Source of the DNA: a virus
IMG/VR virus record: IMGVR_UViG_3300020171_000090
Coordinates: 1-32,846 of that record
Strand: one strand, 5' to 3'
Length of the DNA stretch: 32,846 nucleotides
Shown here: positions 1 through 24,008 of the stretch, in pieces
Layout: every line of letters begins with the position of its first letter
Numbering within the stretch: the stretch's first letter is position 1
Position numbers and translations under genes: made by a program
The notes under the pieces: model-generated
The model's database searches: none
Told to the model about the DNA's origin: nothing
What the model saw: the letters and a program-made list of their open reading frames with translations, nothing else

Positions 1-3
1 ATG

Positions 4-12
4 TGCTATACT
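4..12 (+). promoter_or_regulatory. extended -10 promoter element, leader of the early plus-strand genes
   Basis: TG-C-TATACT is an extended -10 motif (TG at 4-5, hexamer at 7-12). A -35 box would fall outside the window. Transcription would begin near A19 and run through the hairpin at 80-131. The same hexamer, TATACT, is used at 7730-7735 before another terminator-containing leader. AT-rich sequence makes chance matches likely, so this is tentative. Confidence 0.35.
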
Positions 13-18
13 GGTGTT

Positions 19-137
19 ATAAATAGTAATATATTTATATGAACAAATCATTATCACATTTTAAATTGTTGACAGCGAAGGTGTATCAATCGTTGGCTTA
101 TGTGATAATGAGCCAGTTCAGTTGATACGCCTTTTTT
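19..137 (+). ncRNA. structured leader with alternative pairing, upstream of the replication-initiator gene
   Basis: About 119 nt lie between the possible start point and a T-tract. CATTATCACAT (49-59) is the perfect complement of ATGTGATAATG (100-110), an 11-bp match. The second copy sits inside the terminator hairpin described separately, where it also forms the inner stem GGCTTAT/ATGAGCC. The RNA can therefore fold as a nested hairpin or as an interlocked (H-type) pseudoknot, the layout expected of an attenuator, antitermination site or regulatory RNA. I do not recognise a known riboswitch class. The pairing is seen directly; the function is inferred. Confidence 0.45.
80..137 (+). terminator. 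intrinsic terminator-like hairpin just before the initiator gene
   Basis: GGTGTATCAA (80-89) pairs with TTGATACGCC (122-131) over 10 bp with one G-T wobble, enclosing an inner 8-bp stem (94-101 with 108-115). Six T follow at 132-137. The next start codon is at 157, only 20 nt past the T-tract, so a terminator here either ends transcription from outside the window or controls read-through into the gene. Confidence 0.65.
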
Positions 138-156
138 GTTAGTAATTTTTAAATTT

Positions 157-807
157 ATGGCTCAAAAAAGAATGTTTGACAGGTCTATTATTGAAACTAC
201 TAAGTTTCTTGATATATCGTTGACAGCAAAAGCAATATATTTTCTTTTAGGAATGGAAGCCGATGATGAAGGTTTTGTTTCCGCAAAAAGAGTATTAAGA
301 TTATACGGAGGAGAAGTTGGTGATTTGAAAAATCTCATTGATGTCGGGCTGGTAATACCATTCGAAAGCGGAGTAGTTGTTATAACAGATTGGAACAAAA
401 ATAACTGGCTAGACAATCGTAGAATAAAAAATACTGAATATCAAGAAGAAAAATCAAAACTATGCTTAGATAATGGAAAATATGTCTTGCTTAGCAACCG
501 CTTAGCAACCGCTCAGCCAGAGGAGTATAGTATAGAACAGAATAGTATAGAACAGAATAGAAGAGAGAAGAATAAAAGTCGCTTTATCATTCCCTCTCTT
601 TCAGAAGTTTCTAATTATTGTTTAGAAAGAAATAATTCAGTTAATCCTCAAAGTTTTATTGACTTCTATGAAAGTAAAGGTTGGGTTATTGGAAAAAACA
701 AAATGAAAAATTGGCAGGCGGCGGTTAGAACTTGGGAAAGTAGAGATAACAATAAAACAAAATTAGTTGATTTATCAAGCGATAATCCGCATTGGAAATC
801 AAAATAA
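157..807 (+). CDS. phage replication initiator / replisome organizer-like protein
   Basis: A 216-residue protein. The N-terminal part resembles the winged-helix domain of phage replication proteins: an opening of the type MAQKRMFDRSIIETTKFLD, followed by a helix-rich segment rich in G-D/E-x-G-x-V and ending in a TDWxxNNW strand. The C-terminal end (GWVIGKNKMKNWQAAVRTWE) is the signature tail seen in DnaD/replisome-organizer-like phage proteins. Between them lies a polar linker whose DNA carries two sets of tandem repeats. I start it at ATG 157 because the TTG at 136 would add only seven residues with no ribosome-binding support. No clear Shine-Dalgarno precedes it. It heads the plus-strand cluster. 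The family assignment is by sequence feel, without a search. Confidence 0.6.
   Translation: MAQKRMFDRSIIETTKFLDISLTAKAIYFLLGMEADDEGFVSAKRVLRLYGGEVGDLKNLIDVGLVIPFESGVVVITDWNKNNWLDNRRIKNTEYQEEKSKLCLDNGKYVLLSNRLATAQPEEYSIEQNSIEQNRREKNKSRFIIPSLSEVSNYCLERNNSVNPQSFIDFYESKGWVIGKNKMKNWQAAVRTWESRDNNKTKLVDLSSDNPHWKSK
489..558 (+). repeat. iteron-like tandem repeats, candidate replication origin inside the initiator gene
   Basis: GCTTAGCAACC occurs twice in tandem (489-499, 500-510), followed by a partial third copy, GCTCAGCC (511-518). Then AGTATAGAACAGAAT occurs twice in tandem (529-543, 544-558). Both fall in the linker between the two domains of the initiator-like protein and encode short repeats such as SIEQN. 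Phage lambda and several other phages have origin iterons inside the initiator gene, so an origin is a reasonable inference. A simple low-complexity protein linker is the alternative. Confidence 0.4.
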
Positions 808-824
808 TAAACTAACATAAACTT

Positions 825-1370
825 ATGAAAAGTCTTTATTACAAAGGAGCGTTTAAAACAAAAATAGACGAAAAGGAAGAAGGTAGGATTTTAGACAGTT
901 CAGGACAATTTACTTTTAGAGGTGAAATGTTAAAGAAGTCTTTATGTGAAATTTTCAATGAAGAAAAAGGGGAAGAAGAAAAGATGATTATGCACGACGG
1001 GAAACTTATGCCTCGCTCGGAGTATATGAAATTATGGAATAAAGAACAGGGAGATTTAGCAAATCAAACTCCGTCCGAAAAAGCGTTTAGAAATTATAAA
1101 TGTAAATTCTGTTGGTATTATTTGCTTCAATACGGGTATTCCAGATTTTTAGGAACGGAAGACTGGAAACACGAAAGTCCGCACGACACTTTCAAAAGAT
1201 TTGATGATTTAATTTGGAAAGAAGAACCTGAAATAATGAGCCGATTAACCGAAGAAATGGAAAAGTATTTTACTGATAATCCAAAAGAGGCGTGGGTTGA
1301 TAAGCAATTCTTTTTGAAATTTCTGCCAAAGACTTCCTTTGATCCGATTATCCAAAGTATGCCAGTTTAA
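825..1370 (+). CDS. hypothetical protein, early region
   Basis: A 181-residue, charged, soluble protein that I do not recognise. It contains one CxxC-like pair (KCKFC, about residue 94), an aromatic stretch (WYYLLQYGYSRF) and many acidic residues in the second half. No membrane segment or signal peptide is apparent. It lies 17 nt after the initiator-like gene on the same strand, behind an A/T-rich leader (actaacataaactt) and without a Shine-Dalgarno sequence. Its position suggests an early function, perhaps linked to replication, but nothing in the sequence shows what it does. Confidence 0.75.
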   Translation: MKSLYYKGAFKTKIDEKEEGRILDSSGQFTFRGEMLKKSLCEIFNEEKGEEEKMIMHDGKLMPRSEYMKLWNKEQGDLANQTPSEKAFRNYKCKFCWYYLLQYGYSRFLGTEDWKHESPHDTFKRFDDLIWKEEPEIMSRLTEEMEKYFTDNPKEAWVDKQFFLKFLPKTSFDPIIQSMPV

Positions 1371-1585
1371 TCAATTTAATTTAAAGAAATGGGACAACAA
1401 TTAAATCTTAAATTTTATACCTGTATATTTGATAATTTTGAAATTCCTGAAAATGATGATTGGATTTTTGAAATGAAAAGAGAACAAGATAAAAAGTTTA
1501 GAGAAGATATAAAATGGATTTCTGATTTAATTGATAAATATTCTAACGAATAAATCATTAGCGTAAATAATCAATTTAATTTAAA
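1368..1585 (+). repeat. duplicated gene leader (18-nt direct repeat, 200 bp apart)
   Basis: TAATCAATTTAATTTAAA occurs at 1368-1385 and again at 1568-1585, in each case ending 3 nt before an ATG (1389 and 1589). The other plus-strand genes have related leaders: actaacataaactt before 825 and actaatataagatt before 1809. The repeats may be A/T-rich translation-initiation leaders that replace a Shine-Dalgarno sequence, or the trace of a duplicated gene cassette. Confidence 0.6.
1389..1553 (+). CDS. small hypothetical protein (54 aa)
   Basis: ATG at 1389 to TAA at 1551-1553 gives 54 residues, beginning MGQQLNLKFYTCIFDNFEIP and followed by a charged helical second half rich in D, E and K. It is too short for most automatic calls. 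It sits between two supported genes on the same strand, fills the gap well, and has the same 18-nt leader before its start as the next gene. That supports it being translated. I see no recognisable domain. Confidence 0.55.
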   Translation: MGQQLNLKFYTCIFDNFEIPENDDWIFEMKREQDKKFREDIKWISDLIDKYSNE

Positions 1586-1588
1586 ACG

Positions 1589-1774
1589 ATGAAAGCAGGA
1601 AAATATATAAATAAATTTCAATGCTCAATCTGCGGAAGCAGGAACACCGAACATACAGGAGATAATAAAAGGTTTGTTCGTTTTTGCCTTGATTGCGGAG
1701 GAATAGAAATTAAAGGAGCAACAATTAAAGGTGAAACTGTCAAGCAATTTAAAAAAAGGGCGATTATGAGTTAA
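1589..1774 (+). CDS. small zinc-ribbon protein
   Basis: A 61-residue protein with two CxxC knuckles: C12-x2-C15 and C33-x2-C36, separated by 17 residues, a typical zinc-ribbon spacing. The C-terminal half is basic (KGETVKQFKKRAIM), which would suit nucleic-acid binding. Such ribbons are common in phage early regions as small transcription or DNA-binding accessory proteins, but the exact role cannot be read from the sequence. It is preceded by the second copy of the duplicated leader. Confidence 0.7.
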   Translation: MKAGKYINKFQCSICGSRNTEHTGDNKRFVRFCLDCGGIEIKGATIKGETVKQFKKRAIMS

Positions 1775-1808
1775 AGACACTCGGAATTTAAATAACTAAT
1801 ATAAGATT

Positions 1809-1961
1809 ATGATAGAGATATTGCTTGTTTTGATTTTACTTGCTATTACTCACACTTTTACATTAGCGTTTTACGCTTTTGTTATCTTTTGTGTGATTGT
1901 TTGGATTATCAAAATACTATGCTGGATAGTTAATTTTATTTTTGATTTAATACCCGATTAG
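1809..1961 (+). CDS. small membrane protein (50 aa)
   Basis: ATG 1809 to TAG 1959-1961 gives 50 residues that are almost wholly hydrophobic: an N-terminal stretch MIEILLVLILLAITHTFTLA and a second stretch rich in F, V, I and W, ending in a short acidic tail. One long or two short membrane helices are likely. The leader before it resembles that of the gene at 825. The last 26 nt overlap, on the opposite strand, the 3' end of the large minus-strand gene ending at 1936. Small phage membrane proteins of this kind include holins and superinfection-exclusion proteins, but there is no direct evidence for either. Confidence 0.5.
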   Translation: MIEILLVLILLAITHTFTLAFYAFVIFCVIVWIIKILCWIVNFIFDLIPD

Positions 1962-4900
1962 CTTCCTTCCAGATGTCTGTTAGTTGGGATTTGGTTTTAA
2001 GTTGAGATATATTGTTTAGTTGATTTTTTGCTTCTGCATAATTTTGATTTTCAAGATTTTTTATGAATTTATTAACAGCTATTTCATCAAAAGTTCTATC
2101 TTTTATATTTTGACCTTTGGAGTTTTTATACATTATATCTAATATAGATTTCTTATTTACTTCAATCTTCGGAGTAACTTTTTCAACTCCTTTCCCAATG
2201 TCCTTTGCTATAATTTTAACTTTTTTAGGGTCAAAAATAAGTGTGTCAATATATTCTGATGGAGAATATTTCATTTTCTCGGCTACATTCTCACCTACTT
2301 CAGGCAATCTTTCTACTTTTATTCCTCCATATCCTTGCTTTTTTAGTTCTTTTATTCCTGTTTCAAAATCGTCAAATTTATCAAAAAATAATTCTTGAGC
2401 ATCTTTATTTTTGAATACCTTAAATTTAACATCAGGAGATATTTTAGTAACATAAACAGCCCCATCTTTAGCACCTGCATATTCTGCCCAAAACCTTGCA
2501 TTATATGGTGTATTTGTTAATGAAACTCCAACACCATCACCAAGCCCCCCAGCTCCTTCGCCAAATCCACTCTCTAAATTAGTAATATTTTTATTAGGAC
2601 TTCCGTGATAATACAAATCTTCATTCTTCCCAAAAACATCATCAAACTTTTCTACATTTTTATAAACAGGTGTTCCTTGTGCCTTCACAAACTCCTCCGC
2701 AGTCTTATATTTCTTTGCTTTTTGAATAAGAGAGGGCTTAACGAGTGGTTTAGATACTTTTTTAATAGGCAATATAGATTTTCTAATAACAGTTTCAAAT
2801 TGTCCCTCATAACCAAGAGGAGATTTTATAACTTCATATCCTTTGGTAATTTTATCAACCGCTTTTCTGATAATATCATCAGAACTTTTACTTGCCATTA
2901 AACGCAAATCTTCATAAACTCCCATTCCGGTTTTTTCTAACGGTGTTTTAGTTATCTTACTGACTTCGTTTAAAAATTTATCATCAGCTCCTTTTTTCGT
3001 CAGATCTAATGTTTTTAGTCCTTCTGGCGTTTGAAATTCTTTTATAAATTTTCCAGGATAACCTCCTTTTGTATTTGTGGCATAAATTCCTTCTCCAAAA
3101 TAATTTTTAACTGATGGTTTTCCGGCTTTTAAAACATTGCCAATTTTTACATCAGTATGATGAAATAACTTCTTTGCTTCCTGAATAAGAGAGGGTTTAG
3201 AAACTGGTTTGATATTTCCTGTTGCTGTTTTAGGGACAACTCCCTGCTTAAAAGACTTTATAGGCAAGACATTTTTAACTTGTTCCGCCGAACCTCCCCA
3301 ATTTTTAATAGCTGAAGAAATAGCGGGGTTATTCCGTAAATTAGTTGGCAACGCTTTTTTAACTATAGTCATCATTTCTTGAATTGAATTTGCTTTTGCA
3401 AAATCAAGTTTAGAGACAATTGCTCCTGCTTCTGGAGAAGTTCTTTCCACTTGCATTTTTAGATTATGTTTAAAAACTTCAGCAACTTTCTTTTTCATTT
3501 CGGGGTCTTTGATAATATCTTTAACAGACATACCCATTGGCATTTTTCTTAATGCCTTTTTTTCTGATTCAGTCAAAAGTTTATTAGTTCCTCCGAAGAT
3601 TCTTTGAGAAATTACATTTTTTTGTTCCAAAGATTTTTCCAAAGATTTCAATAGTTTTAAGTTTTTGTTTAATTTCAATTCTAAATCAATAGCATTCATA
3701 GTCTTATAGCCAGCTCCACGAGGAATACCAGCAGCCCTGATAAATCCACTTATAGAACCTCCTGTTAATGTGTCAATAGTGTTGAATATTTTTCTACCAG
3801 TAGCTGCACCGATTCCTCTTGGCTCAACTTTCTGTTTTAATTCATTTGCTTTTTTAGCAACATCTTCTGATAATTTTCTAACTCTTATCAAATTAGTCAT
3901 TTCTCTATCTATTGCTTCAAATTCTTTTCCTCCATATAATTTTCGAGCGACTTCTTTTACTCCTTTTCTTGTATTTTCGAAAGATTGAGCATTTACACTT
4001 GTCAATGCTTCTCCAGTTCTTTTACTGAAGGCCTTATTCCCAAATTCTTCTCCGTATGCTTTTGCTAAATCATTAAGATTATTAAGATTGAGTCCTTGAG
4101 TTTGTGCCTTGTTTCTTATTTGAGCCACTTTTTCAACCATAACAGGATCATTCGTTTTTTTATAAAGTTCATCTAATTGATTGAGAGCGTCATCAACATA
4201 ATTATGAGCAACTGTTTTACCACCGACCTTAACACTTGTTTGCAAATTATTCAATGGTATTGGATTTGGTTTTTTTGACAACAAATCATCAAGAGAACCT
4301 GCTAACATTCCTATCCTTTCGTCCGCTTTTTGAGCTAACTGGTTATAATTTTTAACTCCAGAAACGTCCAACTTTGAAAATGCTTTTTTCCCTTTAACAA
4401 TATCATCAGCACTTCCCTGCAGAATTTCTCCAACAACACCATTTATATCTTTTGCCGGTCTTATTAGTTTTTTCGCCACCTTAAGTCCAGTTCCCACTGC
4501 AGGAATTGCCGCTCCAATTAAAGCAGATGTTTTTGCTTCTTCTCCTACTTCTCCAGTTTGAACTGCTGTTATTCCTCCAAAGGTTGCCGCTTCTGTTGCC
4601 ATTCTAGCTAAAAGACCTCTACCTTTTCCAAATTTAGATATAGCTCCACTAGGAACTATAAATTCTCCTAATTGCTCAGCTCCAAAGCCAATAGCTTCGG
4701 CTGTCCCTTTTCTTTCAAGCATTCCAGTTTTATCAGCAATTTCTCTAACAGTTTTAAACTGTTCGGGAGATTTCTGTCCTGTTATTTTTTCAGCTAATGC
4801 TCTTCCCGCTTGTTGAGGAAGGCTTGCCATTCCTAACATAGAAGAAGCAACGCCTTTTTTTGCTCCTTGCGCAATGCCACCAAGAAAATCCGTAGCTCCT

Positions 4901-5199
4901 CCAGCAATACTTCCCAATATTCCAGAACTTCTATCAATAGTTACTTTTGGTTTTTCTGGTTGTTCAGTCTTAACAGGCACACTGGCAACTGTTGGCATTT
5001 TCCCGCTATATCCTTGCGACATAAAATTAACCAAATCCCTGTCGTTTTGAATTTTATCAACGGAATATCTTTGCCTTGATTTCTCTATTTTTGACGCAAA
5101 TTCAGGACTATTTTTAGATAATCCATTCAGAATATCGGTATCCGTATATCCTTGTTTTCTTTTCTCATCTACCCTTTGCCAAAAATTCGTTAAATCCAT
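1936..5199 (-). CDS. large internal virion/ejection protein with two ADP-ribosyltransferase-like modules
   Basis: A 1087-residue protein. Residues about 90-145 and 185-235 are glycine/alanine-rich and amphipathic, like membrane-active parts of ejected phage proteins. The middle is long and helical. Near 678 a module starts LFHHTD and has FGEGIYATN (about 701-709). Near 864 a second module starts YHGSPNKN and has GVGVSLTNTPYNARFWA. Both resemble the H-Y-(E) fold of ADP-ribosyltransferases as found in phage polyvalent proteins. Each is preceded by a near-identical linker, KPSLIQEAKK (668-677) and KPSLIQKAKK (821-830). It is the last gene of the structural operon, 4 nt after the CHAP protein gene. 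I infer delivery into the host with the DNA. Whether the modules are catalytic is unproven. Confidence 0.7.
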   Translation of the reverse strand: MDLTNFWQRVDEKRKQGYTDTDILNGLSKNSPEFASKIEKSRQRYSVDKIQNDRDLVNFMSQGYSGKMPTVASVPVKTEQPEKPKVTIDRSSGILGSIAGGATDFLGGIAQGAKKGVASSMLGMASLPQQAGRALAEKITGQKSPEQFKTVREIADKTGMLERKGTAEAIGFGAEQLGEFIVPSGAISKFGKGRGLLARMATEAATFGGITAVQTGEVGEEAKTSALIGAAIPAVGTGLKVAKKLIRPAKDINGVVGEILQGSADDIVKGKKAFSKLDVSGVKNYNQLAQKADERIGMLAGSLDDLLSKKPNPIPLNNLQTSVKVGGKTVAHNYVDDALNQLDELYKKTNDPVMVEKVAQIRNKAQTQGLNLNNLNDLAKAYGEEFGNKAFSKRTGEALTSVNAQSFENTRKGVKEVARKLYGGKEFEAIDREMTNLIRVRKLSEDVAKKANELKQKVEPRGIGAATGRKIFNTIDTLTGGSISGFIRAAGIPRGAGYKTMNAIDLELKLNKNLKLLKSLEKSLEQKNVISQRIFGGTNKLLTESEKKALRKMPMGMSVKDIIKDPEMKKKVAEVFKHNLKMQVERTSPEAGAIVSKLDFAKANSIQEMMTIVKKALPTNLRNNPAISSAIKNWGGSAEQVKNVLPIKSFKQGVVPKTATGNIKPVSKPSLIQEAKKLFHHTDVKIGNVLKAGKPSVKNYFGEGIYATNTKGGYPGKFIKEFQTPEGLKTLDLTKKGADDKFLNEVSKITKTPLEKTGMGVYEDLRLMASKSSDDIIRKAVDKITKGYEVIKSPLGYEGQFETVIRKSILPIKKVSKPLVKPSLIQKAKKYKTAEEFVKAQGTPVYKNVEKFDDVFGKNEDLYYHGSPNKNITNLESGFGEGAGGLGDGVGVSLTNTPYNARFWAEYAGAKDGAVYVTKISPDVKFKVFKNKDAQELFFDKFDDFETGIKELKKQGYGGIKVERLPEVGENVAEKMKYSPSEYIDTLIFDPKKVKIIAKDIGKGVEKVTPKIEVNKKSILDIMYKNSKGQNIKDRTFDEIAVNKFIKNLENQNYAEAKNQLNNISQLKTKSQLTDIWKEANRVLNQK
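2711..3210 (-). repeat. imperfect direct DNA repeat flanking the first ART-like module
   Basis: The segments 2711-2753 and 3170-3210 are closely similar, sharing the plus-strand core gaataagagaggg and flanking sequence. They encode the KPSLIQxAKK linkers before each ADP-ribosyltransferase-like module. This suggests the modules were joined by a duplication or recombination at the linker. Confidence 0.6.
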
Positions 5200-5203
5200 A
5201 ATT

Positions 5204-6817: not shown

Positions 6818-6821
6818 AAAT

Positions 6822-7691: not shown

Positions 7692-7707
7692 AGTTTTAAA
7701 TTAGCTA

Positions 7708-7735
7708 TTTACAAATTATTTAAATGTGTTATACT
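7708..7735 (+). promoter_or_regulatory. sigma70-type promoter of the free-standing HNH cassette
   Basis: TTTACA (7708-7713), a 16-nt spacer, then TATACT (7730-7735). Predicted start is near 7742, right at the 5' edge of the pairing segments. It is placed correctly to drive the isolated plus-strand gene at 7835 in a region otherwise transcribed leftwards. Confidence 0.6.
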
Positions 7736-7741
7736 TATTTT

Positions 7742-7816
7742 AGATTGATTGCACCAATCAAACATTTTTCATACAAACCCGTGGATAAAGGTGCAATCTT
7801 TTGAAGCGGGTTTTTT
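7742..7816 (+). ncRNA. pseudoknot-like leader RNA before the HNH gene
   Basis: Two interlocked perfect stems are visible. GATTGCACC (7747-7755) pairs with GGTGCAATC (7790-7798), and AAACCCG (7775-7781) pairs with CGGGTTT (7807-7813). Their order (first arm 1, first arm 2, second arm 1, second arm 2) is that of an H-type pseudoknot. A mutually exclusive hairpin, TTGATTG-cac-CAATCAA (7745-7761), would free the 3' partner. The T-run reaches 7816. This looks like a small regulated leader or RNA. No known family is recognised. Confidence 0.5.
7775..7816 (+). terminator. possible intrinsic terminator or attenuator before the HNH gene
   Basis: The stem AAACCCG (7775-7781)/CGGGTTT (7807-7813) ends in a run of six T (7811-7816), 18 nt before the ATG at 7835. 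The loop is long (25 nt) and contains the 3' arm of the other pseudoknot stem, so termination could depend on which fold forms. Confidence 0.4.
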
Positions 7817-7834
7817 AATTATTAAGATAAAATT

Positions 7835-8203
7835 ATGCAACGAAGTTATATTAGAACAGAAGAACATAAAGAAAAAATGAGAAGAATAATAAAAGAAAAA
7901 TATAAAAATAATAATAAAATGGGCTTTCAAAAGGGACATAAACAGCTGAAAGGAAAAGATAGTCATTTATGGAAAGGAAATGACATCGGATATTTAATGA
8001 AACATTTAAGAATTATTGATTTAAAAGGAAAAGCATTAGAATATATTTGTATTGATTGTGGAAAGCAAGCAGAAGATTGGAGCAATAAAGACCATTTATA
8101 TTCAAATAATCTAGATGACTATATTCCAAGATGTAGAAAATGTCATTGTGAATATGATAAGGAATTTAATAATACAAAAAGAGGAAAAAGGAAGATCAAA
8201 TAA
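7835..8203 (+). CDS. free-standing HNH-type homing endonuclease
   Basis: A 122-residue protein. The N-terminal third (TEEHKEKMRRIIKEKY, then KGKDSHLWKG at 39-48) resembles a NUMOD3-type DNA-binding motif of homing endonucleases. The C-terminal half has the zinc-stabilised HNH core: C72-x2-C75, a W-x-N-K-D-H segment (82-87), DDYIPRC and C100-x2-C103-H104. It is the only plus-strand gene inside a 30-kb minus-strand block and has its own promoter-like element, the pattern of an inserted mobile endonuclease gene. It is related in type, though not closely in sequence, to the intron endonuclease at 18596-18991. I see no split host gene around it. Confidence 0.75.
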   Translation: MQRSYIRTEEHKEKMRRIIKEKYKNNNKMGFQKGHKQLKGKDSHLWKGNDIGYLMKHLRIIDLKGKALEYICIDCGKQAEDWSNKDHLYSNNLDDYIPRCRKCHCEYDKEFNNTKRGKRKIK

Positions 8204-8211
8204 ATATAGTT

Positions 8212-8277: not shown

Positions 8278-8289
8278 TTTCAAAATTAT

Positions 8290-15130: not shown

Positions 15131-15132
15131 AG

Positions 15133-15588: not shown

Positions 15589-15590
15589 AT

Positions 15591-15917: not shown

Positions 15918-15933
15918 AGTCGTAATTTAATAA

Positions 15934-16287: not shown

Positions 16288-16296
16288 AATTGTAAA

Positions 16297-17226: not shown

Positions 17227-17242
17227 ATTTTAAGTTAATGAA

Positions 17243-17689
17243 TTAACGAACAATTGTATACGCGAGGATTAAGTCCTCATATATCGTGGTAGTAGCGGTA
17301 GGATTGACAAAAGTAAGATTTACTCCGCCATTCCCAGTTTTGCAGCCAATCAACACTCCAACTCCATTATTTGCGTGATCAGAAAGGGTTGTTGTTGTAA
17401 ATGTCTTTTGTATGGCGCAAACCATAGCATCTTCGGCTCTGACTCCTGATACCGTTACATTCGTAGCTCCTGTCTTAGCAGCCGCAATTGCCGGAAGATT
17501 TACAGTAAATGTTCCAGTAATTCCTATATTCCCGCTTTTATCTGGAAATACAATCGCTCTTGAAGCGTCTGGGCTTGCCTTGAAAGACAAGGTATGAGCA
17601 TACGCCCCTGCTTCTACTCTTATAAAGGCGGTGTTTTTAAAATTCACGCCTTTAAAGTTTGTATAATTCGCTCCGCCATAAGTAGCCAT
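17243..17689 (-). CDS. capsid-associated beta-rich protein
   Basis: A 148-residue alanine/threonine/glycine-rich protein: MATYGGANYTNFKGVNFKNT, then strands such as GTFTVNLPAIAAAK and NLTFVNPTATTTIYEDLILA. It is the first gene after the capsid gene and the structured RNA element. A Shine-Dalgarno-like AAGGAAA lies about 8 nt before the ATG, stronger than for most genes here, so it may be highly expressed. A decoration or minor capsid protein is likely. Confidence 0.55.
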   Translation of the reverse strand: MATYGGANYTNFKGVNFKNTAFIRVEAGAYAHTLSFKASPDASRAIVFPDKSGNIGITGTFTVNLPAIAAAKTGATNVTVSGVRAEDAMVCAIQKTFTTTTLSDHANNGVGVLIGCKTGNGGVNLTFVNPTATTTIYEDLILAYTIVR

Positions 17690-17727
17690 AAGTTTATTTC
17701 CTTTTTTGGAGAATTTTATGATTAAGG

Positions 17728-17816
17728 AGATGGCTCATCGGTTCTCCGGTTAGTCTTGCCCGTTCGACTTTCAGGCAGCCGACAAGAGCCATCTTCACAA
17801 ACATTAAACGGTTTGT
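17728..17816 (-). ncRNA. compact structured RNA element after the capsid stop codon
   Basis: In the 130-nt gap after the capsid gene the minus strand has a short hairpin ACAAAC/GTTTGT (17797-17802 with 17811-17816), then a 9-bp perfect stem AGATGGCTC/GAGCCATCT (17786-17794 with 17728-17736). Inside are further possible stems: GTC/GAC, GCCT/GGGC and CGG-agaa-CCG, giving a multi-branched fold. There is no T-tract, so it is not a simple terminator. It may set mRNA stability or the level of the genes downstream of the capsid gene, or be an unrecognised ncRNA. Confidence 0.5.
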
Positions 17817-17819
17817 TCG

Positions 17820-19409
17820 TTACGCGGCATTCGTGTTCTTTGAACCGAACCATCCGCGATAGTCGTTGAAGCCAATATCAAACTGTACTTCAGCCTTATA
17901 TTGGATTTCCGATGTCTTGAAAACAACATTCGGACCTTCAAGGGTAATCCCTTGACTTTCCTTATATTGTAATCCATACATATCGTTCTTCATTGAACTA
18001 TCAAACGCCCACCAATAAGAAGTATTGGTTGCTAACTGATGCAACGGAATAATCTTATAGGTTGGGATTCCAATTCCATCTCTATCCGCTGAACCAGGCA
18101 TAAATCCTTTATTCAACGCTCCAAGAATTTCCATCGCTCTCTGATGAACAGGATAACCCTTAGTTACGATAATCGTATTAGGGTTAATGTTCATCGGCTT
18201 GCCTTTTGGATTTTTGACTAACGCAGCTGTTCGCTGTAATGCTTTAAGCGCGTCATATTCAAAATCCATATTGACAGTCGTTCCATCGGTGATTCTGTTG
18301 CTGTTGTTGGTGCCTCCGTCTTCTCTTGTGTGAGAAGCGGAAATCAAAGCTAATCCATCTCCGCCGGTGCAGGGAACCATATAATTGCCATAAATATCTT
18401 CGGCAACATAAGTGGTTGAGTAACTGTTGTCTAATCTTTCAGCGCATCTCAATTCCCTCAAATCGGCGCAAGCCTTGCGAGCTTCGGAAGTTATACTTTC
18501 AAGTTTTCTTTTCTTTATCCCGAAATCAATTTTGTTACTACTCTTTTCAGAGCGGGTTAGTCATTTCTGCTAACCTCTGTATATTTCTATACAGTTCAGA
18601 CTATTCCTTCACCCATTAACTGGGGGCTGATTATAGTCGTTGAACCTTCTAATAATTTTCTCGTTTTTCCCCAAACGCCACGCTCTTTATCAAGTTTTAT
18701 GTGGCACGAATGGCATAAACGAGTATAATCGTTGATATTTCTTGTATATTTTCCGTCATCTCTTATATTTGCCCATTCATATCTTTTTCTATCCGTTCTC
18801 TCGCACATTGTGCAATATTTCTCATTTCCAAAATGAACAGTGAAATATCTATGTATTGCCCGATAACTGGCATTATCTCCTGTCCAATGCGATTTGTTTC
18901 CCTTAACAGCATTGGCAATATTCTCTCTCCATCTTTTAGAAAATGGAGGTCTCTTATATCCTTTTTTATGGAGATAAATACCTTTTGGCATATATTTATT
19001 ATTAGTTTGGCTGCAGATTTTCCGTTAGTGCTAAACTTTTCAGTTTTCGCCTCTTGGGAGTTTCCTGCAATTTACAACATTTATTGTAATAATTGCTTAT
19101 TACAGTGGCTATTCTTAACCACATCGCTTTTGTGAAATTGATAAGTATTCCGAAATTAACTTGCGTATAGGTCTTGTCGTAGCCTTGCACAGGACTTGCT
19201 GCCGTAACGGCGGCATTTTCAACTATCCTGCCAGCATATCCCAATCCGCTTAACGAACTGTCTTTCAGGTAGTAATCGCTTACTCCTGTTTCTACATTGT
19301 AGTATTGTTCAAATACTCTTGATTCTGCTTCGCTGCCTTTCAGCCAAATCTTGTCAATAGCTTTATCAATCAAATCGGAAGCGTCGCTTATATTTAGTGG
19401 TGTAGGCAT
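17820..19409 (-). CDS. major capsid protein, interrupted by a group I intron
   Basis: Exon 1 is 19118-19409 (97 codons plus one base), exon 2 is 17820-18526, joined across an intron at 18527-19117. The joined frame is 999 nt, 332 residues, with the junction codon T|AT (Tyr98): ...NFTKAMW-Y-FGIKKRKLESI... Exon 1 starts MPTPLNISDASDLIDKAIDK; exon 2 has an E-RLDNSYSTTYVAEDIYGNY-type region and a basic-aromatic end, YRGWFGSKNTNAA. Context (scaffold and decoration genes upstream) fits a HK97-type major capsid protein. Without splicing, exon 1 would run into intron codons and stop after 135 residues. The splice-site positions are predicted, not proven. Confidence 0.7.
18527..19117 (-). ncRNA. group I self-splicing intron in the capsid gene
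   Basis: All four core elements are visible on the minus strand. P is AATTGCAGGAAACTCC (19057-19072), Q is AATCTGCAGCC (19009-19019), R is GTTCAACGACTATA (18632-18645) and S ends AATAGTCTGAAC (18594-18605). P4 (TGCAG/CTGCA) and P7 (GACTAT/ATAGTC) pair perfectly. P1 is GTGGTT paired with AGCCAC, placing the conserved U-G pair at the end of exon 1. P2 is TGTAATA/TATTACA. Three 3' hairpins follow S: CTGTATA-gaaa-TATACAG, GGTTAG/CTAACC and CTCT-gaaa-AGAG. The intron ends in G at 18527. Length 591 nt, including the endonuclease gene. Confidence 0.85.
18596..18991 (-). CDS. intron-encoded HNH homing endonuclease
   Basis: A 131-residue protein with a basic N-terminus and an HNH zinc core: C60-x2-C63, KRYEWANI (69-76), NDYTRLC and C93-x2-C96-H97. 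It starts 18 nt after the Q element, so it occupies the P6 loop of the intron. Its C-terminal codons overlap the ribozyme: the R element lies in the GSTTII codons, and the stop TGA lies inside the S element. Such enzymes cut intron-less alleles and spread the intron. Translation probably comes from the unspliced capsid transcript. The start codon ATG at 18991 has an A/T-rich leader. Confidence 0.8.
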   Translation of the reverse strand: MPKGIYLHKKGYKRPPFSKRWRENIANAVKGNKSHWTGDNASYRAIHRYFTVHFGNEKYCTMCERTDRKRYEWANIRDDGKYTRNINDYTRLCHSCHIKLDKERGVWGKTRKLLEGSTTIISPQLMGEGIV

Positions 19410-19412
19410 ATT

Positions 19413-19889
19413 TTAAGCATAAGTTGTTTGGCTGGGGAAATAAGTTCCCTCAGTTGTGCGGAAATACCCAATGAGTTTTCCGCTACCAGAAGTAGAACCA
19501 ACCATAGAAACAGCTTTGAAGACAGCAGTTGAGGCATTTCCCGCGCCTAAATCGGTTGATGTATTTCTCACCAATAAAGCACCCGCATTAAGCTGATGTC
19601 TTAACCCGACTTGAGCGGTCAATACAGCGTCCGTGCAATCAGCTTCCCATAACTGTCCGGAAACGAAAGGAATAACTTTTACTTCTTTGTCAGAAGCTCC
19701 TTCCGCGTAATCCATACATACGCCAAAAATGGTAGTTGAAGTAGAAGCGGCAGCGCCAGCATTCACGCCAGCTCCGCCAGTTCTTGAAAATTCAACAACA
19801 CACCCAGGCCAGACAGTTCCGGAACATCTCATATTGACAGCGGCAACATCCACTACTAGTCCTTGACTATTCACTTGTCTAAAAGCCAT
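19413..19889 (-). CDS. capsid decoration / head-stabilising protein
   Basis: A 158-residue beta-rich protein, between scaffold and capsid genes. It begins MAFRQVNSQGLVVDVAAVNM and has alanine/glycine-rich strands (GAGVNAGAAASTSTTIFGV, KLIGYFRTTEGTYFPSQTTYA). Small beta-barrel proteins of this size directly before the capsid gene are typical phage decoration proteins. It ends 4 nt before the capsid start. No enzymatic motif. Confidence 0.6.
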   Translation of the reverse strand: MAFRQVNSQGLVVDVAAVNMRCSGTVWPGCVVEFSRTGGAGVNAGAAASTSTTIFGVCMDYAEGASDKEVKVIPFVSGQLWEADCTDAVLTAQVGLRHQLNAGALLVRNTSTDLGAGNASTAVFKAVSMVGSTSGSGKLIGYFRTTEGTYFPSQTTYA

Positions 19890-19898
19890 ATAATTAAG

Positions 19899-20660
19899 TT
19901 AGTTTTCTAATTCCTTGATTTCTTCTTCCGACCATCCCCCATCCTCATATGCTCTACGCAATTGAGGAGAGAGCCGTTTCCCAGAAGATGATTTTTGCAT
20001 TCCTCCTCCGCCTTTTTGAGCGGTTGCAATCCGCTTTTTGACAGTCTCGGAATTATTATCAACGGGTGGCGCTATACCCTTGTGGGCTTTTTCAAGAATT
20101 TGTCTTATAAGTTTGGGATTATCAGGCATTTTATAAAAAGATAATTCTCGTTGAAACGCATTCCAATTTATGTCATCAGAGTCGTTTTCTGGCTTATACT
20201 CGGGATATTTTTCAAGAAAATCTCCAAGAGCTTCGTTTTTAGCGTTCTCATAGACAATTTTCTTGCTTTCGTCCTTCGTAATATACCCCTTTGATTTAAG
20301 CACTCTATCAATGTTTTTAACATCTTCAGGGTTTAAATCATCAAGTTTGTCAGAAACTTCCATTATGACTTGTTCGGTTTCCGTTTCCCTTAAATTTCTT
20401 CTTTGCCCTCTTAACTCTTTAATTTCTTTCAAGAGTTTTTCTCTCTCGCTTAAAAGACCTTGCACTTGTTTAGCGTCTCCCGTATCTTCAACGACATCTT
20501 CTTCGGGAGTTGAAGTGTCGTCAGGTTTTTCTTCCGTTGGAAGTTCGGAAGGAGTTTCCGTCTCCTTCTCTTGCGGGATTTCCGCAGGAGTTTCTTTTAC
20601 TTCCATTTCGTCCCCGACTTCTGTTGTGAATTCGGGCTTTACACCGATAACATTTGGCAT
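19899..20660 (-). CDS. capsid scaffolding protein
   Basis: A 253-residue protein. The first ~65 residues are very acidic and low-complexity (repeats of E, P, T and D). A coiled-coil region (about 68-110: SEREKLLKEIKELRGQRRNL and on) and a helical middle follow. It ends in a basic glycine/serine stretch and a C-terminal helix, SPQLRRAYEDGGWSEEEIKE. An acidic, coiled-coil protein with a basic C-terminus just before the capsid genes is the standard scaffold pattern. A good Shine-Dalgarno, AGAAGGAAG, precedes the ATG at 20660, unlike most genes here. Confidence 0.7.
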   Translation of the reverse strand: MPNVIGVKPEFTTEVGDEMEVKETPAEIPQEKETETPSELPTEEKPDDTSTPEEDVVEDTGDAKQVQGLLSEREKLLKEIKELRGQRRNLRETETEQVIMEVSDKLDDLNPEDVKNIDRVLKSKGYITKDESKKIVYENAKNEALGDFLEKYPEYKPENDSDDINWNAFQRELSFYKMPDNPKLIRQILEKAHKGIAPPVDNNSETVKKRIATAQKGGGGMQKSSSGKRLSPQLRRAYEDGGWSEEEIKELEN

Positions 20661-20680
20661 ATTTTTTACTTCCTTCTTTT

Positions 20681-20740
20681 ACTTGCTTGAAGGGGCAAGT
20701 ATGTTAATAATTATTAGCTCATTTCTCTCCATTAGGAGAG
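20681..20740 (-). promoter_or_regulatory. tandem hairpins and palindrome upstream of the scaffold gene
   Basis: The 95-nt gap before the scaffold start holds CTCTCC-taat-GGAGAG (20725-20740), a perfect 12-nt palindrome TAATAATTATTA (20705-20716), and ACTTGC/GCAAGT (20681-20700). No T-tract follows. A control region for capsid-gene expression, an RNase processing site or an operator are all possible. No promoter pair with correct spacing was found. Confidence 0.4.
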
Positions 20741-20755
20741 TGTGAGACAACAATT

Positions 20756-21190
20756 TTATCTGTCATTAGTTATTAAAGATTTTGTTTCTGTTGAGAATGA
20801 ATTATAAACCAATTCCACCCAAGTTTTAACTCCGTTTGCTCCTTCAAAGTTTGGAATTAGCTTGGTTCTTTTATCAATCTTTATGAGTTCTTTGTCTTTG
20901 GGAGTTAGCGTGGAATACTTCTCGGGGACTACTATTGTGAATAAAAACCCCGCTGGCTGCCATTCTATTTCTATTCCAAATTGCTTATTGAGAGTAAAAT
21001 CTACCAATTCCCTGTATTCCGGAGGTACAGGGAACTTGCTATTTGCAAGTTCCGGAACTTGTGGCGGTTTAATCTCTGGCGGTTTTGGCTTTATAATTGT
21101 TTTCTTCAAATCCGCTACATCTATGGCTAATTCTTTAACAGCTTTTGCCATTTCTATTAAGTTTTTTTCTAATTCGCGATTTGTGGGCAT
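20756..21190 (-). CDS. hypothetical protein upstream of the scaffold gene
   Basis: A 144-residue protein. A short helical N-terminus (LEKNLIEMAKAVKELAIDVA) with heptad-like spacing is followed by a proline-rich linker (KPKPPEIKPPQVPEL) and a compact beta/alpha C-terminal region. No recognised domain. It lies between portal-associated small genes and the scaffold gene, so a head-assembly accessory role is likely by position only. Confidence 0.6.
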   Translation of the reverse strand: MPTNRELEKNLIEMAKAVKELAIDVADLKKTIIKPKPPEIKPPQVPELANSKFPVPPEYRELVDFTLNKQFGIEIEWQPAGFLFTIVVPEKYSTLTPKDKELIKIDKRTKLIPNFEGANGVKTWVELVYNSFSTETKSLITNDR

Positions 21191-21194
21191 ATTT

Positions 21195-21575
21195 TTAAAT
21201 TATTAAATTAGATTTTTTAACTTTCCCGATAACTTCTTCTTTTGTTTCAGGTAGGGAAATCTTGATTGGAAATGTTATACTCTCTCCTTTACGAATATCA
21301 TTTTTCGCTTTTACGCTCAAGACTGTTTCATACCATCTTACTTTTGTAAGTGTCTGCGGAATTAGTTTTTGTTGCTGTTCTGGCGTTCCTATCGCAAATA
21401 ATATCTGATGCAGTTCTTCTCTTTTGATATACGCTATTTGATTGTCTGGAAATGTGAATTTTAAAATCTTTCCTTCGTTTGTTTTTGTATCGTCTGGCTT
21501 CCAGTTCGCTTCTATCCAAAAATTATTCTTTCCATCTTTATCTATCATACGCCATTTTTCTGGTTGTTTTAGCAT
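21195..21575 (-). CDS. hypothetical protein
   Basis: A 126-residue soluble protein, beginning MLKQPEKWRMIDKDGKNNFW, with several charged strands and a lysine-rich end. No signal peptide or membrane helix and no motif that I recognise. It starts 3 nt after the stop of the predicted 26-residue peptide at 21579-21659 and ends 4 nt before the next gene, so it sits within the operon of capsid-assembly genes. Confidence 0.6.
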   Translation of the reverse strand: MLKQPEKWRMIDKDGKNNFWIEANWKPDDTKTNEGKILKFTFPDNQIAYIKREELHQILFAIGTPEQQQKLIPQTLTKVRWYETVLSVKAKNDIRKGESITFPIKISLPETKEEVIGKVKKSNLII

Positions 21576-21578
21576 AGT

Positions 21579-21659
21579 TTAAGCATTAAATATTATTCCG
21601 CTTCCGTCTGTTTTTGATGAACCTTCATCAATTATGTCTTGTAAAATAGGATAAGTCAT
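21579..21659 (-). CDS. very small peptide (26 aa) between overlapping genes, tentative
   Basis: ATG at 21659 overlaps the stop of the preceding gene (ATGA, 4 nt), and its TAA is 3 nt before the start at 21575. The peptide reads MTYPILQDIIDEGSSKTDGS plus six residues. It exactly fills an otherwise empty 80-nt gap in a tightly packed operon and shows the overlap used by several neighbouring genes, which supports translation. The length alone cannot exclude chance. Confidence 0.4.
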   Translation of the reverse strand: MTYPILQDIIDEGSSKTDGSGIIFNA

Positions 21660-21874
21660 TGTTGTATTGTTAGAAATATGTTATCTAATAACCGCTTAAT
21701 TCCTCTGATTTGACCTTCTTGCAGGGCAACCTCTTTGAATGTTTCTCCTGCCGTGTCTTTCAGCATATTCTCATTTCTTATATTAATAATAGTTTCTTCT
21801 GCAACAGATTTGATAGCTTCCCATTGCGGAGAGTTAACTAAACTTTGAAGTAATTGCTTTGTTTTTTGGGTCAT
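21656..21874 (-). CDS. small helical protein following the portal gene
   Basis: A 72-residue helical protein (SLVNSPQWEAIKSVAEETII; TFKEVALQEGQIRGIKRLLD). Its start overlaps the portal stop by 4 nt (ATGA), giving translational coupling and suggesting a stoichiometric link. Small helical proteins of this kind often follow portal genes in short-tailed phages. No specific function is recognised. Confidence 0.65.
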   Translation of the reverse strand: MTQKTKQLLQSLVNSPQWEAIKSVAEETIINIRNENMLKDTAGETFKEVALQEGQIRGIKRLLDNIFLTIQQ

Positions 21875-23877
21875 ATAATCAATGGTTTAACCATTTTGTT
21901 TATTATCTTGCCTCCTTGCGAAGTTGGATTGCTGGCAGGTAATGATGTTTGAGTAGTAAGCTTCTGTGCTTGTGTGCTTGGTTGTGCGTTTGGCTGTCCT
22001 TGTATAGGTTGACCATTCTCATCTAATTGCTGGGGAGCTGGGATTATCAAATCTTGATTTCCACCGCTAATCCATTCATCCGGTAGAATGTCTTTCGGGT
22101 CTTTGTCATAAAGTTTGCAGATGTTCTTTGCCACTTTGGAATAAATTTGAGGCGGTTGAGCCAACAAAGGAATGAGCATATTATACATTTCTAATTCCAA
22201 AGTCTTATCCAATTGCTTACTTGGAGTGAGCATTGATTGAGCTTTGATGAATATCATTCCGTCCCATCTCAAGTGCTTTGGTTTTATTCTGAAAAATTTA
22301 GTTTCTTTTGTCTGCGTTAAATTCTTTTTCTCATCTTCTTCTAAATTCAATGGAACTTCAGGATATACTTTTGCATTAAATACTTCCTGTCCATTCTCAT
22401 CAACATCTCTTTCGTATAATTCAGGGTCTGATTGAATGTCTTTCAAATAAGCTTCTATCAGTTCGGGGTCTGATATTGAATATACTTCTGGCTCGGAATA
22501 AATTAACTGATGAATGCAAACTGTTAAATATGCTTCTGTTTCTAAGGCATCGCAGATATTGTCTAATGGCGTTTTTAATCTCTTTAAGGCTGATTCTTTA
22601 TTCATAGCCGATTGATAAGCAGTCTTCTCGTCTGAATCTCCTTGAAGACTTTTTATGACTCCAGAAGCCTCTTCTATATCAGACTTAAACATTTCAATTC
22701 CTTTCCACGCCTCTGCTCCCGGACCTGGTATTTCTAACCAGCTTATATCTTTAGGATTAAGAGCTTGCTTTCCAACTCCAGGGCTTATGCTTATATCTCC
22801 TGTTTCGTTCAATGTATTAGTTCCTGAATAGAAAAACATTTTATAAATTGAAAGCGTCAACTGGTCAATCGTCATATTTCTAAATCTATCCAGCAAAGCT
22901 TGGTCGTATTTTATTGCTTCATATATTCCTATGCCATAAGGGCATTGAGTGTGTCTTAATAGCCAATAAGTCTGCCAAAGAGTTATTTTCTTCGCTCCAT
23001 TTATGTCTTCAATAGGTAGTTTGTCTAACAATATAGGAACTCCATTAGCTATAACGGCGAAAATGTCTTTTATCCTGTTCTCATAAAAATATACTTCCAC
23101 TAAGTCTTTCTCGATGTATTTCTTGGCATTCTGGTTGTTTCCCGCTACTTTTTCCGTTGTAATTCCTCCTATCTTTATTTTATCTATCAAATCACTACTG
23201 GCGAATTCCGTCTTCAACACATCTAGCGAATATACTTTACGCCAGCACCAGTCTCTTATTGAGAATTGATTGTTAGGCAAAGCCATATCATCAATCCAAA
23301 CATTCCAAGGATCTAAGTTCTCTCTGAAAGTGTCATCGTATTCTACTATATTATTGTTAGTTATCTTCAAAGGATAAGTCCTGCCTACCGCCCAACCGTA
23401 TTTTGCCAAATTAAAAACAAACAATTTAAGCTGTTGTTTGCTTTTAGCTATTTCCCAACTTCTTTGATATAGCTGAGATTGTAGTTCGCTTGTTGAGCTG
23501 TATTTCTTTGCTCCAGCGCTAAACACTCCTTCTGGGTTTCTGTCTATCAATATTGATACTGCCGTGTTTATCTTTATAAAAGGATTAGGAGATGATATGT
23601 CAGATTGCCAATCAGAACTTCCAAACTTAACTAATGAAGAAGCCCATCCCTTCTCTTCATCTTGAACTAACTTTCTTTTACCGGTAGTTCCAAGCCTATG
23701 CGGAGCATAGTCTTTATCAGCGTCAGACCATAAATTTTCTAACTCTATTCCATATTGCTCTTGCTTTCTATTCGCTTGCAAATCGGATATTCTTTGAATT
23801 ATAAAATCATAATTTTCTTTGTCTTTTTTCGACAAATCTTTTTCTGCATTGAAATCTTTTTTTGGTTTTGTTTCCAT
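21871..23877 (-). CDS. portal protein
   Basis: A 668-residue protein, in the size range of the larger short-tailed-phage portals. It has a charged N-terminus (KPKKDFNAEKDLSKKDKENY), a beta/alpha core with FGSSDWQSDISSPNPFIKIN, a central helix region (EEASGVIKSLQGDSDEKTAY, about 405-424, then QSAMNKESALKRL) characteristic of portal stem or clip helices, and a glutamine/proline-rich C-terminus. Context is decisive: large terminase upstream, scaffold and capsid downstream. A promoter and terminator-like hairpin directly precede its start, which is 7 nt past the T-tract. No Shine-Dalgarno is visible. Confidence 0.75.
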   Translation of the reverse strand: METKPKKDFNAEKDLSKKDKENYDFIIQRISDLQANRKQEQYGIELENLWSDADKDYAPHRLGTTGKRKLVQDEEKGWASSLVKFGSSDWQSDISSPNPFIKINTAVSILIDRNPEGVFSAGAKKYSSTSELQSQLYQRSWEIAKSKQQLKLFVFNLAKYGWAVGRTYPLKITNNNIVEYDDTFRENLDPWNVWIDDMALPNNQFSIRDWCWRKVYSLDVLKTEFASSDLIDKIKIGGITTEKVAGNNQNAKKYIEKDLVEVYFYENRIKDIFAVIANGVPILLDKLPIEDINGAKKITLWQTYWLLRHTQCPYGIGIYEAIKYDQALLDRFRNMTIDQLTLSIYKMFFYSGTNTLNETGDISISPGVGKQALNPKDISWLEIPGPGAEAWKGIEMFKSDIEEASGVIKSLQGDSDEKTAYQSAMNKESALKRLKTPLDNICDALETEAYLTVCIHQLIYSEPEVYSISDPELIEAYLKDIQSDPELYERDVDENGQEVFNAKVYPEVPLNLEEDEKKNLTQTKETKFFRIKPKHLRWDGMIFIKAQSMLTPSKQLDKTLELEMYNMLIPLLAQPPQIYSKVAKNICKLYDKDPKDILPDEWISGGNQDLIIPAPQQLDENGQPIQGQPNAQPSTQAQKLTTQTSLPASNPTSQGGKIINKMVKPLII

Positions 23878-23883
23878 AAGTTT

Positions 23884-23931
23884 AAAAAAAGACGGACAGA
23901 AGACTAGCCATAAGCTAATATTCTATCCGCC
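23884..23931 (-). terminator. intrinsic terminator directly before the portal gene
   Basis: On the minus strand GGCGGATAGAA (23921-23931) pairs with TTCTGTCCGTC (23891-23901) over 11 positions including two G-T pairs, with an inner TAGC/GCTA, followed by seven T (23884-23890). The portal ATG at 23877 lies just 7 nt beyond. With the upstream promoter it would make an RNA of about 90 nt, or a leader whose read-through controls the portal gene. TTATCC (23966-23971) near its 5' end can pair with GGATAG in the stem, a possible antiterminator. Confidence 0.65.
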
Positions 23932-23974
23932 GTGGGTCAGGGTTCTTTAAAACCTTCGCGTGGTGAGGATAACT
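23884..23974 (-). ncRNA. short promoter-to-terminator transcript (candidate small RNA or attenuated leader)
   Basis: From the predicted start at 23974 to the T-tract is about 91 nt. It contains a GGTT/AACC hairpin (23941-23954) and the terminator stem. It sits between the terminase and portal genes, the place where phage packaging RNAs are found in phi29-like phages, but I see no similarity to the phi29 pRNA. Function unknown. Confidence 0.4.
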
Positions 23975-23980
23975 AATTAA

Positions 23981-24008
23981 ATTATATGCGATATTTATTT
24001 TTTGTCAA
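23981..24008 (-). promoter_or_regulatory. consensus sigma70 promoter upstream of the portal gene
   Basis: On the minus strand TTGACA (24003-24008), a 16-nt spacer, then TATAAT (23981-23986). Both hexamers are perfect matches. The -35 box overlaps the last codons of the gene ending at 24005. Predicted start is near 23974. It drives the structured leader and, if read through, the portal and capsid operon. It is the strongest promoter I see in the window. Confidence 0.8.

Follow-up and report, generated by a model that had tools for sequence, protein, structure and literature searches.

Interleaved, competing helices in phage 5' leader RNAs: a candidate class of bistable leader

Introduction

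The put antitermination RNAs of phage HK022 are structured RNAs that follow soon after a phage promoter. In the rep leaders of pT181 and pIP501, a terminator-like hairpin adjoins the start codon of the initiator and an upstream segment competes with it (PMC5703833). Hairpin leaders are also found at I-TevI, mobE and seg43 in the T4 group, where the hairpin of seg43(25) lies just 5' of the ribosome binding site (RBS) (PMC2988022). In the maturation-gene leader of MS2, a transient fold allows translation until the leader refolds, and the hok and aapA type I toxin mRNAs form metastable 5' hairpins during transcription, as backed by covariation (PMC6733600).

Here we analysed a 32,846-nucleotide stretch of viral DNA (IMG/VR record IMGVR_UViG_3300020171_000090; hereafter, the window), in which two leaders, sites 1 and 2, carry the layout A-B5-A'-B3: the predicted transcript begins close to A, the loop of hairpin B (B5:B3) contains A', and the start codon comes next. 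As in pT181 and pIP501, a terminator-like hairpin and a competing upstream segment stand before a replication-initiator ATG; however, in those leaders the pre-emptor binds one terminator arm and the outcome depends on an antisense RNA, whereas pT181-type pairing with the 5' terminator arm was not found here and A pairs with A' in the loop. The T4-group homing endonuclease leaders resemble the present ones in having structured RNA right upstream of endonuclease genes that would limit or time expression, but they hide the RBS in early read-through transcripts, while here two competing helices follow a local putative promoter and genes other than endonucleases are preceded by them too. An early fold superseded by a stabler one, with timing that governs translation, would be shared with MS2; the phages here, in contrast, have double-stranded DNA, and the simple two-helix A-B-A'-B' arrangement occurs at unrelated genes with no cloverleaf. 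Metastable hairpins formed during transcription and supported by covariation would also recall hok and aapA; these, however, are not phage leaders but mRNAs for toxins, which pair over long distances (5'-3') and have an antisense RNA. Unlike the put RNAs, many of the elements include a terminator-like stem, with the start codon immediately after. No published description of the A-B-A'-B' architecture was found in the open-licence literature.

Results

Sites 1 and 2 of the window

Table 1 Positions of the leader features and adjoining genes in the window
Feature	Position	Strand	Basis or remark
Site 1, putative -10-like sequences	7..41	+	consensus scoring; TATACT 7-12, TATATT ~30-35
Site 1, segment A, TCATTATCACAT	48..59	+	fully complementary to A' (12/12); p = 0.0006, conditional on the hairpin
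Site 1, segment B5	60..98	+	RNA folding; outer stem core 80-89, inner stem ~94-98
Site 1, segment A', inside loop of hairpin B	100..111	+	complementarity to A
Site 1, segment B3 and T-tract	111..137	+	RNA folding; B3 core 122-131, T-tract 132-137
DnaD-like helicase loader / replisome organizer gene	157..807	+	ATG 157; phrog_8489, E 7.7e-41
Site 2, putative promoter TTTACA-16-TATACT with TG	7708..7735	+	consensus match
Site 2, segment A, GATTGCACC	7747..7755	+	fully complementary to A' (9/9); p = 0.0066, conditional on the hairpin
Site 2, segment B5, AAACCCGT	7775..7782	+	RNA folding
Site 2, segment A', GGTGCAATC, inside loop of B	7790..7798	+	complementarity to A
Site 2, segment B3, GCGGGTTT, and T-tract	7806..7816	+	folding; T-tract 7811-7816
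Small HNH-like gene, 122 aa, downstream of site 2	7835..8203	+	phrog_4160, E 1.1e-14
Site 3, terminator-like hairpin and T7, no A:A'	23884..23931	-	adjoins portal ATG (23877)
Site 3, promoter TTGACA-16-TATAAT, outside the element class	23981..24008	-	consensus match, 12/12

The hairpin of site 1 folded with z = -8.3, and the combined element reached -51.3 kcal/mol as compared with a best of -33.5 among six whole-window shuffles; weaker pairing extended beyond the T-tract to ~152 in RNA folding. The complementarity described in the initial annotation was confirmed, with a count of 12 of 12 (48-59 with 100-111) in place of 11 of 11. A full promoter is absent within the contig, at the edge of which consensus scoring detected only a weak -10-like sequence upstream of site 1. 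The gene that follows gave tblastn matches to Tuc2009 Rep and its relatives. A chance inverted repeat or an ordinary terminator was refuted for site 1 by the control hairpins, the covariation and the shuffled genomes given below, and site 1 is a genuine element of the same kind as site 2.

At site 2, the nine-of-nine pairing reported earlier held, and the leader shares its class with site 1 through the interleaved inverted repeats A-B5-A'-B3. The whole element scored -31.5, which lies inside the range of the top whole-window shuffle scores, so site 2 taken alone is suggestive only. Its linkers (L1 19, L2 7, L3 7) leave room for both stems at once. The gene downstream belongs to a family of unknown function, phrog_4160, and the HNH-type residues of its product were read from the sequence. 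In a scan of viral contigs, no relatives of this gene or of the terminase were found, and scans with the HNH proteins of two other loci (L203 and L106) revealed no close homologue with a comparable leader.

Promoter-like and terminator-like patterns were not enriched in the window, and single pattern matches therefore mean little. With Rfam 15 at the gathering threshold, the whole window gave 0 matches and 19 related loci gave two tRNAs and nothing else, while lax scans of sites 1, 2 and 3 returned chance-level matches only. Because Rfam and covariance models miss elements that keep only the order of two interleaved helices, phage genomes may contain an entire class of cis-regulators that such searches overlook.

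Recurrence in other phages

At least a dozen sequence-unrelated counterparts were found in other phages. In a phage group that does not use Shine-Dalgarno (SD) initiation, the same layout stands directly before the replisome-organizer ATG in unrelated sequences, and blastn among the 28 elements detected two related pairs only. In a hairpin-first test, in which the hairpin was selected without reference to A and A was called at p < 0.05, A was found in 14 of 19 non-SD leaders, compared with 3.3% of 153 control hairpins (binomial 1.6e-17, slightly generous since L087 and L088 are related) and with 1 of 15 SD leaders. The element was mostly absent from Firmicute relatives of the replisome-organizer gene with SD.

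The pair L087/L088 could be aligned; 22 of 22 base pairs were retained and seven had changed on both sides (two in A:A' and five in B), whereas slid controls gave 0-1. The A:A' helix was also retained between L010 and L266 (GTTGCGG/CCGCAAC and GTTGTGG/CCACAAC). Pairing conserved in related phages, as anticipated in the initial annotation, is thus borne out by the 14 leaders with A and by these compensatory changes, and the comparisons establish the architecture, its independent recurrence and the compensation in both helices.

The element was also seen upstream of HNH and NUMOD4-type HNH genes, a second replisome gene, a DUF1351-like gene and small ORFs. Sixteen elements preceded ATGs in 488 kb of the phage group, as against 0 in a shuffled copy and 0 in five reference phages (207 kb). 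In most cases the +1 predicted from consensus promoter matches, in AT-rich DNA, sits 0-29 nt upstream of A. Most non-SD copies have an L1 (A to B5) of 0-3 nt, an L3 of 0 and B stems of 14-30 bp; B5 and A' are spaced by 1-5 nt, A' and B3 usually by 0, and the distance from B to the ATG ranges over 0-54 nt. In SD-type leaders (L008, L010 and L266), L1 is 26-36.

Sites 1 and 2 and their counterparts may well form one class of 5' leader RNAs in phages, each located between the start codon of a gene and that gene's own promoter. A control principle common to unrelated genes, as proposed earlier, is supported by the recurrence and compensatory changes for sites 1 and 2 but not for site 3.

Candidates of other kinds were disfavoured: an HDV-like or other nucleolytic ribozyme by the lack of an Rfam ribozyme match and by the short B5-A' and A'-B3 gaps, and the put-like cis RNA or stand-alone small RNA suggested in the initial annotation because only the pairing pattern is shared, Rfam gave no family match and several elements stop a few bases before the start codon.

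Predicted folding order

When the RNA was folded as it grew, the A:A' form was the first minimum-energy fold in 18 of 19 leaders, and B took over 1-13 nt later; this predicted order is established for these leaders. The nested-path barrier was 14-26 kcal/mol. Trapping did occur with upstream structures of greater strength (-17 to -25), which weighs against a timer. The full A:A' and B helices would exclude each other in most copies, because A touches B5, 0-3 nt away, and A' touches B3; site 2 and the SD-type leaders could hold A:A' together with B as a pseudoknot or kissing complex, and exclusion is therefore not universal.

Discussion

A plausible account of these elements is that the bistable leader times translation, and often attenuates too, as a built-in timer or switch. 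During synthesis, the A:A' helix would come first, leaving the region upstream of the start codon open and the terminator, if a T-tract is present, unformed. After at least 10 nt of B3 had emerged from the polymerase, the far stronger B5:B3 hairpin would displace A:A', and in this mature form the region upstream of the start codon would be closed. We infer that A and B both occur in vivo, A as ON and B as OFF, with translation, termination or both as the output. Such a leader could allow the gene to be expressed only briefly, or only from a fixed fraction of transcripts, and a restricted output would fit proteins harmful in excess, such as a replication initiator or a DNA endonuclease. In the longest leaders (L201 and L295), B could not plausibly block ribosomes directly, because it lies up to 54 nt from the ATG. 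More tentatively, this may be a widespread and previously undescribed leader class, conserved only as the pattern A-B-A'-B' with both exclusive helices under selection, and serving as a folding timer that needs no protein; it would hold down the synthesis of early proteins, among them replication initiators and homing endonucleases, above all in hosts that lack SD initiation. The independent recurrences and compensatory changes offer an unusually clean test set for whether co-transcriptional folding itself is selected as a regulator, and the elements could be used as small ligand-free expression timers.

It is possible, though rather unlikely, that the leaders are purely transcription attenuators, in which B acts as an intrinsic terminator whose formation is sterically delayed by A:A' as the antiterminator, and read-through is set by a factor, an antisense RNA or the speed of RNA polymerase. 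Sites 1, 2 and 3 alike have a GC-rich hairpin and, after it, a T-tract in the interval from promoter to gene; a competing antiterminator helix A:A', conserved in relatives, is present at sites 1 and 2 and not at site 3. The putative promoters upstream of the elements and the control of the pT181 and pIP501 rep leaders by competing pairing (PMC5703833) also favour attenuation, as does a T-tract (5 or more T among 8 positions at the B3 end) in 17 of the 28 elements, both window sites included. However, the other 11 (clear cases being L102, L104, L295 and L203) keep both helices without it, so termination is not what unites the elements, and A' lies in the loop where pT181 uses a terminator arm. 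The attenuation proposed in the initial annotation would accordingly be only part of the function, and the bistable timer remains our preferred reading.

A static pseudoknot or kissing loop seems improbable; in this reading A:A' would be present together with a partially open B, and the resulting 5' structure, able to bind protein or resist RNase, would stabilise or mark the mRNA. The linkers of site 2 and the three SD-type leaders are long enough for coexistence and A is predicted to be close to the 5' end, but the short L1, the absent L3 and the long B stems of most non-SD copies argue against it on geometric grounds.

Very unlikely is a DNA-level element, an origin or recombination site beside a replication gene, with the RNA structure a mere by-product. 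In its favour, the reverse complement of the layout has the same form, the best-known case adjoins the replisome organizer, and an origin is annotated inside the Tuc2009 Rep gene; however, at other places in these genomes the element stands before HNH, DUF1351-like and small ORFs, always upstream of a start codon and usually downstream of a promoter-like sequence, with T-tracts on the coding strand.

Ordinary terminators or chance inverted repeats deserve scarcely any credence for site 1 and its relatives, given the excess over control hairpins, the covariation and the zero pre-ATG detections in shuffled genomes, even though the score of site 2 by itself was equalled in whole-window shuffles; this reading suits site 3. 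The 6-nt pairing with one wobble listed there in the initial annotation is at chance level, as the best match was 3 nt for the loop (p = 1.0) and 5 nt for the whole hairpin (p = 0.7), and a terminator-like leader was absent from five loci with portal relatives of 54-60% identity. Of the three like modules proposed, sites 1 and 2 therefore share one architecture, while site 3 is a promoter with a terminator-like hairpin, lacks A:A', is not conserved and is no member of the class. The promoters proposed earlier were recovered at site 2 and, as a perfect match, at site 3, where the hairpin alone folded with z = -7.0.

Interleaved repeats before replisome-organizer genes

The gene behind site 1 (157–807) codes for a DnaD-like helicase loader (phrog_8489) whose kin include the replisome organizers of lactococcal and streptococcal phages, and scans of viral contigs and genome contigs yielded many relatives. 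Where these lacked a Shine-Dalgarno (SD) sequence, the bases just 5′ of the ATG were repeatedly arranged as A, B5, 1–5 nt, A′, B3 and ATG, where A pairs with A′ and B5 pairs with B3 to form hairpin B, the letters differing from leader to leader. Among 28 elements, blastn detected only two related pairs; the elements are therefore separate instances of a pattern and not one inherited sequence. The architecture also precedes HNH genes, a replisome gene of a second kind, a DUF1351-like gene and several small ORFs.

In the common form, A lies 0–3 nt from B5, B5 lies 1–5 nt from A′, A′ adjoins B3, and the B stems span 14–30 bp; because of these lengths and spacings the full A:A′ and B helices cannot coexist on geometric grounds. 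Predicted sigma-70 promoters, many with an extended −10 and all consensus matches only, place +1 at 0–29 nt 5′ of A in most elements. Of the 28 elements, 17 have a T-tract after B, and the distance from B to the ATG ranges from 0 to 54 nt.

Positions and examples of the interleaved elements and the flagged sites
Feature	Location	Strand	Details
Site 1 A	48-59	+	12/12 complement of A′
Site 1 A′	100-111	+	in loop of long hairpin
Site 1 T-tract	132-137	+	end of long hairpin; gene ATG at 157
Site 2 A	7747-7755	+	9/9 complement of A′; gene ATG at 7835
Site 2 A′	7790-7798	+	A and A′ around AACCCG/CGGGTT stem
Site 3	before portal ATG at 23877	-	perfect promoter and strong hairpin with T7
HNH gene element	L106 3518-3610		gene identity read from sequence
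NUMOD4-type HNH gene element	L203 3746-3797		gene identity read from sequence
Replisome gene (second kind) element	L061 2512-2597		MSGWIKLHRSLKGW...
DUF1351-like gene element	L151 4738-4823		gene identity read from sequence
Leader A/A′ example	L088		AACCTTGCG/CGCAAGGTT
Leader A/A′ example	L099		GTCTAGGAC/GTCCTAGAC
Leader A/A′ example	L098		GAGCGTGGG/CCCACGCTC
Leader A/A′ example	L095		TCTCGCCCGA/TCGGGCGAGA
Leader A/A′ example	L167		TCCGTTCAA/TTGAACGGA
Leader A/A′ example	L104		GCCTTGCA/TGCAAGGC
Leader A/A′ example	L295		CCCTTGCA/TGCAAGGG

Frequency and covariation

Because a detector that seeks A:A′ is biased, in that the elements it picks tend to have A:A′, we made a second test in which the strongest leader hairpin was chosen without using A and a complement of its loop was then sought in a segment made up of the 40 upstream nt and the 7 nt at the base of the stem. 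A loop complement at p < 0.05 was found in 14/19 non-SD leaders; L168 and L178, which stem from Clostridia-type MAGs, were scored among the failures. For control hairpins taken from these genomes the figure was 5/153 (3.3%), and for SD leaders it was 1/15. The binomial p for the non-SD leaders, 1.6e-17, is somewhat generous because L087 and L088 are related. When whole contigs were scanned, strong pre-ATG elements outside genes numbered 16 in 488 kb from this group of phages, rumen-type phages had 3 in 121 kb, and none was found in a shuffled copy of the 488-kb set or in 207 kb of lambda, Tuc2009, Flavobacterium 11b, Bacteroides B124-14 and Brochothrix NF5.

The alignable leaders of L087 and L088 preserve 22/22 pairs of both helices; at seven of these, two in A:A′ and five in B, both partners have changed. 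Sliding the partner strand by 1–3 columns gave 0–1 double changes. A:A′ is also maintained between the SD-type leaders L010 and L266 (GTTGCGG/CCGCAAC vs GTTGTGG/CCACAAC), where A is located in the loop of a separate upstream hairpin and a kissing complex is therefore possible. In four SD-containing phages (L010, L012, L266 and L267) both A and A′ lie in hairpin loops, and their complementarity would give a kissing-loop complex beside the terminator. The strongest interleaved repeat observed apart from the leaders is at L226 15880–15952 (G014), where a 22-nt perfect inverted repeat is interleaved with a 10–11-nt one outside genes, with an ORF within 40 nt downstream.

The three flagged sites

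The window, 32,846 bases long, is a complete, linear virus record from IMG/VR. The initial annotation had proposed that three modules, each made up of promoter, structured RNA, T-tract and start codon, follow one control principle, and that in each a 5′ segment is the complement of part of the terminator hairpin region. This complementarity was borne out at sites 1 and 2 but not at site 3, which leaves two of the three sites standing. The site 1 hairpin is far more stable than shuffles (z −8.3), and the combined element reaches −51.3 kcal/mol vs −33.5 for the best in six shuffled windows. At site 2, A:A′ pairing has p = 0.0066 conditional on the hairpin, and the total score of −31.5 is equalled by shuffled windows; despite this modest score we accept it as a probable member of the class, because like architecture precedes HNH genes elsewhere and the site 2 gene is HNH-like. 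At site 3, the 5′ part showed no significant pairing with the hairpin, and none of five portal relatives examined carried a similar leader.

Promoter-like sequences, possibly a late promoter, lie directly 5′ of the portal gene in the window (23981–24008, minus strand) and in at least two relatives (L004, L006), although the site 3 hairpin is not conserved. Two relatives, L002 and L006, share a conserved short GGAGAACGCTAA(A)CTCC hairpin 5′ of the portal start.

Folding order and mechanism

When folding of the growing RNA was computed, A:A′ was the minimum-energy structure once A′ emerged in 18/19 leaders, and B displaced it after roughly ≥10 nt of B3 had emerged. The shared feature is not the T-tract; it is two competing helices 5′ of the start codon, the weaker predicted to form first. 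Nested-path barriers from the A:A′ form to the final form were 14–26 kcal/mol, and real barriers are lower because pseudoknotted routes and cellular helpers are ignored. In cells, hairpins of ≤9 bp above −15 kcal/mol swapped fast and upstream structures of −17 to −25 kcal/mol were trapped (PMC2817708); the leader energies span both ranges.

The simplest reading of the competing helices is a folding timer: in young RNA the A:A′ helix would leave translation open and, where a T-tract is present, the terminator unable to act, and in mature RNA hairpin B, with A′ in its loop, would close the leader. The MS2 maturation-gene leader and the metastable hairpins of hok/aapA act in this way (PMC6733600), and a further precedent is offered by the structured leaders that homing endonuclease genes carry in T4-type phages (PMC2988022). 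The chief alternative is plain attenuation, in which A:A′ would serve as the antiterminator, as in the rep genes of pT181/pIP501 (PMC5703833), but the competing segment there pairs with a stem arm, unlike A here.

No Rfam family matched, and open-literature searches found no account of the A-B5-A′-B3 architecture. The leaders appear to work like known metastable leaders, and the recurrence of a sequence-free pattern across phages appears undescribed, a credible route to something larger.

Other features of the window

The major capsid gene is split at 18525–19120 (minus strand): the 332-aa capsid protein of L003 aligns to the window from 19409 down to about 19118 and then from 18524 down to 17823. 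The insert of ~600 nt contains an HNH gene (18596–18991) together with a below-threshold match to a group I intron (RF00028, 18579–18611, E 0.055), and probably represents an intron-borne homing endonuclease within the capsid gene, as is annotated for Tuc2009. Judging from translations only, the genes of a block at 26000–32700 (minus strand) look like enzymes acting on sugar nucleotides and glycans (aminotransferase, epimerase-like, methyltransferases, transketolase C-terminus-like), which a phage fragment of 33 kb would not usually carry.
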